Source of the DNA: Atopobiaceae bacterium
GTDB taxonomy: Bacteria; Actinomycetota; Coriobacteriia; Coriobacteriales; Atopobiaceae
Direction of reading: 5' to 3'
NCBI GenBank assembly: GCA_017941705.1
Contig: JAGAVX010000039.1
Coordinates: 1-37,912, forward strand
DNA: 37,912 bases
Shown here: in pieces, positions 11,319 through 14,481 of the stretch
Position numbering within the stretch: position 1 is the stretch's first letter
Layout: each line of letters opens with the position of its first letter
Notes under the pieces: model-generated
Databases searched by the model: none
Told to the model about the DNA's origin: nothing
What the model saw: the letters and a program-made list of their open reading frames with translations, nothing else
Program-made: the position numbers and the translations under genes

Positions 11319-12290
11319 CTAGCGCTCGAACTTGTCGGCAAGGGCCCATGCGTCGTGGCTCATCTGCTCGATTGCTTCCGGGATCTCGTCCAGCTTGTAC
11401 GGGGTCATCTGGTAGACCCAGTTGAGCCAGTTGCGATAGAGCAGGTTGGCATGGCTGCGCCAGGTAAAGATGGGCTGGTTCTCGGGGTTGTCGTCGGGGA
11501 AGTAGTTCTCGGGCAGGCGGATGGGCAGGCCCTTGTGGAAGTCGCGCCAGTACTCGTCGGCCAGCGTGTCGCGCCCGTACTCGAAGTGGCCGGTGACATA
11601 GATCTCGTGGAAGTCCTCGGTGGCGATGAGCGCCGGTCCACTCGAAAAGCCCTCGGACAGCACCTTGAGCTCGGGATGCTTGGCGAGCTCGGATGCGTCG
11701 AGCATCGCGTGACGCGAATGCGGCATGTTATGCATCTCGTCGAAGCCGTTGGTCAAGAAGCTGTACTCGTCGCACAGGCGCTGGGGAAAGACGCCAAAGA
11801 GCTTGGCCGGAAGCTGGCGCTTGGGGATGCCGTAGTAGTGATACAGCCCTGCCATGGCACCCCAGCACAGGAACATGGTAGAGAACACGTGCTTGCGGCT
11901 CCAGTCCATGATCGTGCAGAGCTCGTCCCAGTAGTCGACCTCCTCAAAGGGCAGGTGCTCGACCGGAGCGCCCGTCACGATGAGACCGTCGTAATTCTGG
12001 TCGTGGTACGCCTCGAAGGTGTCATAGAACTTGACGAGGTGGTCGGCAGAGGTGTTCTTTGATTCGTGGCTGCTCACGCGCATGAAGTCGCAGCTCACCT
12101 GTAGCGGTGACTTCGAAATGAGGCGCAGGATTTGGGTCTCGGTCTCGATCTTGGTGGGCATGAGGTTGAGAATGGCGAGGCGCAGCGGGCGAATGCGCTG
12201 ATGGCTGGCCACCTCCTCCTCGAGGGCAAAGATGCGCTCTTGCTGCAGGATGGTCTTTGCGGGCAGGCCGTCGGGAATGTTGATGGGCAT
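11319..12290 (-). CDS. metA: Homoserine O-acyltransferase, probably acetyl-CoA specific
   Basis: The 323-residue MetA-family enzyme acylates homoserine in methionine synthesis. It shows LRLAILNLMPTKIETETQIL, the catalytic cysteine in FLCWGAMAGLYHYYGIPK (Cys142), and the catalytic histidine in YVTGHFEYGRD. Counting from the ATG, residue 111 is glutamate (VTGAPVEHLPFEEV). In studied MetA proteins Gly111 gives succinyl-CoA use and Glu111 gives acetyl-CoA use, so this is probably a homoserine O-acetyltransferase despite the MetA fold. The start is preceded by TAGGAG. About 130 nt of untranslated leader lie upstream. The product would feed O-acetylhomoserine sulfhydrylation. Confidence 0.95.
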   Translation of the reverse strand: MPINIPDGLPAKTILQQERIFALEEEVASHQRIRPLRLAILNLMPTKIETETQILRLISKSPLQVSCDFMRVSSHESKNTSADHLVKFYDTFEAYHDQNYDGLIVTGAPVEHLPFEEVDYWDELCTIMDWSRKHVFSTMFLCWGAMAGLYHYYGIPKRQLPAKLFGVFPQRLCDEYSFLTNGFDEMHNMPHSRHAMLDASELAKHPELKVLSEGFSSGPALIATEDFHEIYVTGHFEYGRDTLADEYWRDFHKGLPIRLPENYFPDDNPENQPIFTWRSHANLLYRNWLNWVYQMTPYKLDEIPEAIEQMSHDAWALADKFER

Positions 12291-12546: not shown

Positions 12547-12940
12547 TTGTCAGCGCTTTTTTCAGAGCTGCATCAAATATGCACCTACAAGTCGCTTTGT
12601 AGGCGCGTTTTCGCGGCGAAAAACGATGGCTACTTTTTTGCAAGGCTCAAATCTGCAAACAAATCGTCGCAGCCCCGCGATAATCGCCTTTCCGGCACCT
12701 ACAAAACAAATCGTATGTAGCAGCTATAAAGCAGGCCGGCGTGACTCGCCGCAGGCCAAAACAGCAGTACCTACAAATCAACTTGTAAGTGTGCCATCAC
12801 ACCAAAATGAATACGTTTTTGATCTTGTGTGTAACTTTGGGAACCCCCATTTTCCAACCAGGCATTTAGACCCCAAAAACGCACTGACAACATGTGTTGT
12901 AGGTGCATTATTGAAAGACGTCCAGAAAAAACGCTGACAA
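12547..12940. repeat. Symmetric array of four 26-bp palindromes bounded by inverted repeats
   Basis: Four copies of a palindrome of the form GCACCTACAA-N6-TTGTAGGTGC occur at 12581-12606, 12695-12720, 12767-12792 and 12881-12906, all with the same 10-6-10 spacing. Copies 1, 3 and 4 keep both arms; copy 2 has a decayed right arm. The outer ends carry an inverted repeat, TTGTCAGCGCTTTTTTC (12547-12563) and GAAAAAACGCTGACAA (12925-12940). All pairs share one centre at 12743.5, so the whole 394-bp block is symmetric. The outer arms align for about 65 bp; the inner parts do not. The block lies between the metA promoter region and the helicase gene and holds no convincing gene. It may be a mobile repeat, a multi-site operator or a cruciform-forming element. 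Confidence 0.8.
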
Positions 12941-13059: not shown

Positions 13060-14481
13060 ATGAGTACTACATTTGCCGAGCTCGGGCTAAACGAGCAGAT
13101 ACTTGCCGGGGTAGAAGCCCTCGGCTTCACCCAACCGACCCCCGTTCAAAGCCAGGCCATCCCCTTGGTGCTCGAGGGACGCGACCTCGTCGCCTCTGCC
13201 CAAACAGGCACGGGCAAGACCGCGGCGTTCGCCCTTCCCGCGTTGCAGCGTATTATGGGGCTGTCTACGGACGACCCAACGCCCGAAGTCGCCACATCGC
13301 CGGCAACCGCAGACACCACCGACGCCCCCGAGCAGGACGAAGCTGCACCCAAGCGTCGACGCAGGCGGCGGCGCAAGAAGGGCACCCAAGACACCGCCTC
13401 GCCCCAAGCGGCGGCACCAGCTCGCCCGCTTGCGCTGGTCGTAACGCCCACGCGCGAGCTCGCACAGCAGATCGAGCGCGTCGTGACCACAGTGTGCGAG
13501 CACACCAACCAGCGCTCGGTCATCGTCATGGGTGGCACGCGCTTCGACCGTCAGCTCAAGCAGCTCTCGCGTGGCTGCGATCTGCTCGTCGCCACGCCGG
13601 GACGCCTCATCGACTTGATGGAGCACAATCACGTCGACCTCGGGCGTGTGCACGTGTTCGTGCTCGACGAAGCCGATCGGATGCTTGACATGGGCTTTTG
13701 GCCCAGCGTGAGGCGCATCATACAGGCTCTGCCCGCAAAGCGGCAAAACCTGCTGTTCTCCGCCACCATCCCGCCCAGCATCAAGGGCACCATCGACGCG
13801 ATGCTCACCAATCCCGCAACTGTCGAGATCGCACGGGTTGGCGAGACGGCCGACACGGTCGAGGAGCACCTGTGCCCCGTCACCCAGGGCCAGAAGACTC
13901 AGCTGCTGCAGGAGCTGGTGAAAACCGGCGGCGCAGAGCCCGACACGAAACCCGAGCGCGTCCTGGTCTTCTGCCGCACCAAGAACCGTGTGGATGACGT
14001 ATCGAAGACCCTAAAGAGCGCGGGCTTCAAAACCGAGGTCATGCATGCCGACCGCCCGCAAAAGGCGCGCGACAAGGCGCTCGAGCGATTCCGCGAGGGT
14101 GCGGTCCAGCTTTTGGTCGCAACCGATGTCATGAGCCGCGGCATCGACGTGAGCGGCATTGACGCAGTCGTCAACTTTGACGTCCCGATGGATCCCGAGG
14201 ACTACGTGCACCGCATCGGCCGCACGGGCCGCGCAGGCGCGACGGGCCATGCGTACACATTCGTAGCCCCCGACGAGATCAGTCCCCTGCGCGAGATCGA
14301 GTACTTCACCAAGAAGCTCATCCCCGTCTGGGACCTGGAGGGATTCGATTACGACAGCGGACGTATCGTGCCCAACCCCACCAGATCCACCTCCAAGCCC
14401 ATGCGCACCATGTTCAGCGGCAGCAAGTCTCGCCGCGGCTTTGGCGGCCCCAGCGGCGGCAGGTTCGGCCGGCACTACTAA
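13060..14481 (+). CDS. DEAD-box RNA helicase (RhlE/CshA type) with Arg-rich insert
   Basis: The 473-residue ATP-dependent RNA helicase shows all core motifs: Q-motif GFTQPTPVQSQAIP (22-35), motif I AQTGTGKTAAF (47-57), Ia PTRELAQQ (130-137), VATPGR (177-182), DEAD (203-206), SAT (234-236), VFCRTKNRVDDV, ATDVMSRGIDVSG and HRIGRTGR (384-391). Between motifs I and Ia it carries an insert of about 50 residues (71-120), Thr/Ala/Glu rich, with PKRRRRRRRKKG in the middle; ordinary DEAD-box proteins have only a short loop there. The C-terminus ends in a short Gly/Arg/Ser tail (RRGFGGPSGGRFGRHY), likely an RNA contact. The ATG at 13060 fits the family start but has no clear ribosome site. It lies 120 bp downstream of the palindrome array and ends at a terminator. 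Confidence 0.95.
   Translation: MSTTFAELGLNEQILAGVEALGFTQPTPVQSQAIPLVLEGRDLVASAQTGTGKTAAFALPALQRIMGLSTDDPTPEVATSPATADTTDAPEQDEAAPKRRRRRRRKKGTQDTASPQAAAPARPLALVVTPTRELAQQIERVVTTVCEHTNQRSVIVMGGTRFDRQLKQLSRGCDLLVATPGRLIDLMEHNHVDLGRVHVFVLDEADRMLDMGFWPSVRRIIQALPAKRQNLLFSATIPPSIKGTIDAMLTNPATVEIARVGETADTVEEHLCPVTQGQKTQLLQELVKTGGAEPDTKPERVLVFCRTKNRVDDVSKTLKSAGFKTEVMHADRPQKARDKALERFREGAVQLLVATDVMSRGIDVSGIDAVVNFDVPMDPEDYVHRIGRTGRAGATGHAYTFVAPDEISPLREIEYFTKKLIPVWDLEGFDYDSGRIVPNPTRSTSKPMRTMFSGSKSRRGFGGPSGGRFGRHY

Follow-up and report, generated by a model that had tools for sequence, protein, structure and literature searches.

Sites such as parS, matS and those of SlmA and Noc place tens of protein-bound palindromes over one chromosome; they are single short sites, and their motifs are broadly conserved. 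The REP/BIME and REPIN sequences of enterobacteria and pseudomonads are dispersed intergenic palindromic units, often at 3′ ends, which occur as inverted pairs and are long maintained; they are hairpins moved by RAYT. The ends of phage Mu, Tn7 and IS21 carry several sites (PMC10122671). Each of these has two ends, inverted to one another, in which the recombinase sites form an array. Lastly, the internal eliminated sequences (IESs) of Paramecium are short elements whose lengths show a ~10-bp helical periodicity because their two ends must meet (PMC3408717).

The element described here lies in the window (the whole stretch of 37,912 nucleotides that was analysed) from an Atopobiaceae genome, hereafter the source genome. 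It is spread over its genome in tens of copies, as parS, matS, SlmA and Noc sites are, but has 12 half-sites per element, a strict geometry and a species-specific motif. It resembles REP/BIME and REPIN in being dispersed, intergenic and palindromic, in its inverted pairing, its frequent place at 3′ ends and its long maintenance, but its unit is 178 bp long with six half-sites, its centre is quantised by the helical turn, its arms show no covariation and no link to a RAYT was found. Like the ends of Mu, Tn7 and IS21, each of its inverted halves holds an array of sites; in contrast to them, it contains no transposase gene, has no target duplication, carries dyadic inward-facing sites and brings its two ends within only about 45-140 bp of each other in the source genome. 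With the IESs it shares the helical periodicity of length, although those are eukaryotic, TA-bounded, excised in development and without fixed multi-site arrays. No described match for the element was found in the literature, and the statement of the sequence-only reading that no element of this form had been described stands after the searches made here. What is new is the combination of features; dyad sites, helical phasing and dispersed repeats are each already known.

Direct reading of the sequence confirmed the four dyads (Table 1). They are spaced by 114, 72 and 114 bp, which is symmetric rather than "identically spaced" as the sequence-only reading had worded it, its positions being correct. 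The outer inverted repeat that it had centred on 12743.5 was also borne out: the outer arms at 12547 and 12940 have this common centre, and a repeat search paired the arms 12547-12616 and 12871-12940 with 70% complementarity across 70 nt. All dyads but the second, which is weaker, come within 3 mismatches of a perfect 10-6-10 palindrome, against 0 expected (100 shuffles). A half-site of the dyad motif (TTGTCAGCGC) forms the outer arm, and one extra half-site lies between the dyads of each half. The start of the DEAD-box gene was set as in Table 1 because the start of its open reading frame at 12892 falls inside the element and matches in congeners begin at residue 38 or later.

Table 1. Parts of the element and flanking genes (window coordinates), and sites of a second repeat in the congener G016 (locus coordinates).
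Feature	Position	Strand
Whole element (class n=0), with a unique centre between two inverted half-elements	12547..12940	.
Outer half-site, left, TTGTCAGCGC then T-tract; distance to dyad 1 is 34 bp in every measured half of the source genome	12547..12556	+
Dyad 1, GCACCTACAA-N6-TTGTAGGCGC	12581..12606	.
Inner half-site, left, CTGCAAACAA	12653..12662	-
Dyad 2, weaker right arm TCGTATGTAG	12695..12720	.
Centre, without homology to centres of other copies in the source genome	12721..12766	.
Dyad 3	12767..12792	.
Inner half-site, right, TTGTGTGTAA	12825..12834	+
Dyad 4	12881..12906	.
Outer half-site, right, ACGCTGACAA	12931..12940	-
Homoserine O-succinyltransferase (HTS), flanking gene, outside element	11319..12290	-
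DEAD-box helicase, flanking gene	13060..14481	+
Second repeat of G016	L152 1040-1107, 4241-4298; L154 826-892; L179 just after first gene	

The block belongs to a family with about 39 members, dispersed between the genes of the 2.81-Mb draft source genome, where blastn with the block gave matches on dozens of contigs. As about 39 copies repeat it, the geometry is not a product of chance. A profile (R1) built from 54 half-elements, whose E-values are approximate, recovered 60 half-elements at E<1e-20, in about 39 places in all; several copies are solo halves or lie at contig ends, and none among those fetched are near-identical. The dyad matrix counts 118 sites in the fetched loci. Complete elements have four dyads at 114 - X - 114 (occasionally 113 or 115), each copy being two inverted half-elements of about 178 bp, with six half-sites per half and an unrelated centre between them. 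The half-sites are of the type TTGTnnGyr and stand at fixed distances in the order outer >, dyad 1 <>, inner <, dyad 2 <>; the outer one has the consensus TTGTMDGCGC followed by a T-tract. In 51 aligned halves the core TTGTnnG is nearly invariant, and the conserved stretch runs from ~36 bp before dyad 1 to ~143 bp past its start, with zero conservation beyond. Conservation reaches 2 bits in the half-sites and is zero in the centre and outside the element. Mean identity between copies is 82% in sites, 35% in linkers and about 26%, equal to random, in centres and outer flanks. Of the two origins offered by the sequence-only reading, a repeat duplicated head to head was thus right in essence, this being a dispersed family of two inverted half-elements in which solo halves exist; a large decayed palindrome was wrong, as outer and inner sites are conserved across copies and linkers are not.

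Contig ends hold at least seven elements, seemingly a larger number than their share of the genome would give. Two contigs overlap by ~141 bp inside one element (the end of L055, C152:12653, and the start of L044, C136), and the assembly branching at such ends may mean strain variation within elements.

A dyad with a 6-bp centre plus accessory half-sites resembles core-and-arm layouts, which would fit a site-specific recombination or attachment site with a 10-6-10 core and arm sites. The 6-bp centres, though, differ between sites and between copies, there are about 39 copies and no gene family recurs beside them, and we consider this reading very improbable.

In the source genome the distance between dyads 2 and 3 (X) is 70-72, 82, 94, 103, 113-115, 124, 134, 144-145, 155 or 165-166 bp; the 72 bp of the block belongs to the shortest of these classes, which lie one helical turn apart. 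X fits 71.5 + 10.46n bp (25 elements, R=0.92, p<5e-5). With the centres of the congeners G008 and G016 included, the period is 10.4 (43 elements, 21 distinct lengths, p<5e-5), and the phase of the centre is alike across species (0.51, 0.51 and 0.61 turn for the source genome, G008 and G016). Moreover, the linkers carry a phase-coherent A/T wave of about 10-11 bp, in segments too short to fix the period sharply.

No covariation was found between the arms within dyads, the palindrome arms varying independently; RNAalifold returned essentially no shared RNA structure, Rfam gave no match over the element, and the dyads of G008 persist though their hairpin pairing is weak. Without arm covariation or a conserved RNA structure, the sites look like protein dyads and not hairpins. 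Fixed distances in the halves, whole-turn spacing between them, no hairpin conservation and phased A/T tracts are, as read from sequence, signs of a probable protein assembly on one face of the DNA.

Two readings that depend on hairpins are weakened by the same data. Bidirectional transcription terminators, or a structured RNA, would suit dyad 1 of the source genome, which can form a stem with AAAAAC/GTTTTT flanks and gave a terminator-like match, and would suit the favoured placement between convergent genes. With no conserved fold or Rfam match, with dyad 2 and the G008 dyads folding poorly, and with single half-sites and helical phasing left unexplained by termination, we regard this as improbable. 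A REP/REPIN-type element moved through hairpins by a single-strand Y1 (RAYT) transposase would be dispersed, intergenic and palindromic as these copies are, and the source genome and G008 have one Y1_Tnp match each (open frames of 262 and 277 codons). Y1 proteins, however, occur in carriers and non-carriers alike and are absent from the congeners G014 and G006; the Y1 gene of the source genome and the other Y1 genes inspected have no flanking element. Together with the independent arms and the weak G008 hairpins, this leaves little room for such an origin.

The distribution of the family depends on how it is sought. BLAST in relatives found no family match, suggesting a family unique to the source genome, a view that was overturned by profile R1. 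The exact motif pattern occurs only in the source genome among 140 family genomes; across 84,980 species it matched five stretches, all from distant organisms and taken to be unrelated or chance matches, and it matched nothing in viral contigs. The motif-free geometry had one match in viral contigs, judged a coincidence from its sequence, and blastn of the block against a plasmid collection gave no match. With R1 the architecture was recovered in G008, at 38 halves with E<1e-5, and there were weak matches in G006, G014 and G016. The half-sites are species-specific, being TTGTAGGTGC in the source genome, TTGTCTGTAC/TTGTCTGCA in G008, TTGTCTGCGG in G016 and TTGTCGGTGC in G006, and the geometry >43-45< 7 >65< 42 <(7>) recurs in other species with other motifs. 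G008 and G016 keep it within 1-2 bp of the source genome, with different half-site sequences; G014, G006 and G003 have weaker or decayed versions. Among 18 congeners, each represented by one genome, the full architecture is present in 3, weak or decayed in 3 and was not found in 12. In G016 there are eleven complete elements with one geometry, whose split central dyad measures 27 or 58-59 bp. When 397 genomes of the order were scanned with a motif-free geometry pattern, there were 55 matches in the source genome, 68 in G008 and 24 in G016. G003 and G014 gave a single match apiece, the other genomes between 0 and 2, and the control nearly none; the architecture was found in none of the remaining ~390 genomes.

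An extra half-site lies 26 bp from dyad 1 in G008 (L138-L145) and G006 (L155-L156); its counterpart in the source genome is a weak GGCCCCAAAT, possibly a decayed site. Contig C4 of G008 (235 kb, about 11% of the genome) holds about 10 of 31 element loci, which hints at regional clustering. At L147 of G008 several near-copies of GGAAAGGGAAAGCCCGAGTTGTGCGGA, an unrelated repeat, adjoin the element at 2025-2204. G016 has a second repeat (Table 1), a short, near-perfect, terminator-like palindrome, seen around GGGACACGCCC...GGGCGTGTCCC in L179, and G006 (L187) has a similar palindrome around GGGACGGTCCC.

The elements are intergenic and their neighbours are mixed housekeeping genes (HisS, PurL, GuaA, UvrD, DnaX, ComF and others), with no gene family recurring beside them and no shared function found. 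Gene calls came from a home-made codon-usage caller and placement was classed by hand: 13 of the 26 elements of the source genome with two clear neighbours lie in convergent-gene gaps, compared with 12 of 68 ordinary gaps of at least 60 bp. The sequence-only reading had suggested a four-site operator for the DEAD-box gene, and the element does end 119 bp before its start codon. Since copies flank unrelated genes and the HTS-DEAD gap has no element in seven congeners, this is effectively refuted as a specific function. The same reading had held the palindromes unlikely to be operators or a repeat family if found nowhere else in related genomes nor upstream of helicase orthologues; the geometry recurs in congeners, and those seven gaps are empty.

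In G016 whole elements, centres included, are related by descent, and left and right halves can be told apart. Five near-equidistant copies there differ by 17-27% in their linkers; the figure is 3-8% for sites and 0-2% for cores. The nearest copies of the source genome share a mean linker identity of 51%, and their cores deviate by 3.9% against about 24-30% expected if neutral, a comparison in which decayed copies are harder to detect and the search favours copies with intact sites. As site cores stay nearly intact while linkers diverge freely, the sequences argue for probable purifying selection in place after whole-element duplication.

The comF gap has an element at the same position in the source genome, G016, G008, G003 and, in decayed form, G014, and every species has its own motif there. 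A raiA RNA (RF03072) lies downstream of comF near the conserved element in G016 (L153 3093-3351); upstream of comF (L163, L165, L159) a conserved gene of ~350-400 codons with no family assigned adjoins the element, and its shape suggested an AbiEi-like protein, as a candidate only. Only 3 of 22 fetched G008 loci are shared between species, from which element positions appear to turn over. The L039 gap has an element in the source genome and G008 and none seen in G016 or G015; in other congeners the gap between the two genes is short, with no room for a full element. At azlCD in G008, paired solo halves on either side have the appearance of one long element, but the genes between them are ordinary.

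Gain and loss between species, dispersed copies and terminal inverted repeats (the outer half-sites are inverted in complete elements) would all suit a miniature non-autonomous mobile element, whose halves would be multi-site transposon ends of the Mu, Tn7 or IS21 type and whose whole-turn centres would record synapsis across very short DNA. The descent of whole G016 elements with distinguishable halves fits this too, and the IESs offer a precedent for helical length periodicity. But no excess of flanking direct repeats marks a target-site duplication in the source genome or G016 (the age of the copies limits the test), no partner transposase or recurring gene was found beside the elements, near-identical copies are lacking among those fetched, sites are conserved in place far longer than linkers, and dyads with inward-facing halves are unusual for such ends. 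We consider a mobile element, the chief alternative to a chromosome-structural site, on balance unlikely. An architectural site kept in place is favoured over it by the selection result, and the two can be combined, the element being mobile in origin and kept in place afterwards.

We hold it an even call that the block is an assembly site for a putative sequence-specific, probably dimeric DNA-binding protein, probably with a chromosome-structural role. Each half-element, its AT-rich stretches in helical phase, would be about 178 bp wrapped or bent on one protein scaffold, and two such complexes would sit head to head. As centre length varies only in whole helical turns and centre sequence is free, they would have to contact each other across the centre. 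Copies would have arisen by rare whole-element duplication and then been kept in place by selection. Protein binding and DNA wrapping would have a structural output, a chromosome-organising or insulating site often between convergent genes, as opposed to regulation of one gene. The copies are dispersed and their sites under selection, as looked for in chromosome-organising sites. Against a chromosome-structural role speak the patchy distribution, unusual for a core function of the chromosome (the full form is in 3 of the 18 congeners), the few loci shared between species, and the fact that convergent gaps also tolerate insertions best. More tentatively, and some way short of even, the copies may form a hitherto undescribed chromosome-architecture system in which a dedicated protein wraps ~178-bp arrays, paired head to head on one helix face at ~39 intergenic places, protein and sites co-evolving into species dialects on an unchanged geometry.

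Bacteria seldom offer natural evidence, on the scale of a genome, that large multi-site DNA-protein assemblies are strictly phased to the helix; here the phasing recurs in three species whose recognition sequences differ. Should a binding protein be found, one could examine with this family how the specificity of a protein and that of several hundred half-sites shift in concert, and whether dispersed repeats serve bacteria as material for insulator-like or loop-anchoring sites. Should the copies prove to be a mobile element instead, they would give bacteria a counterpart of the ciliates' eliminated sequences, which are likewise phased to the helix.
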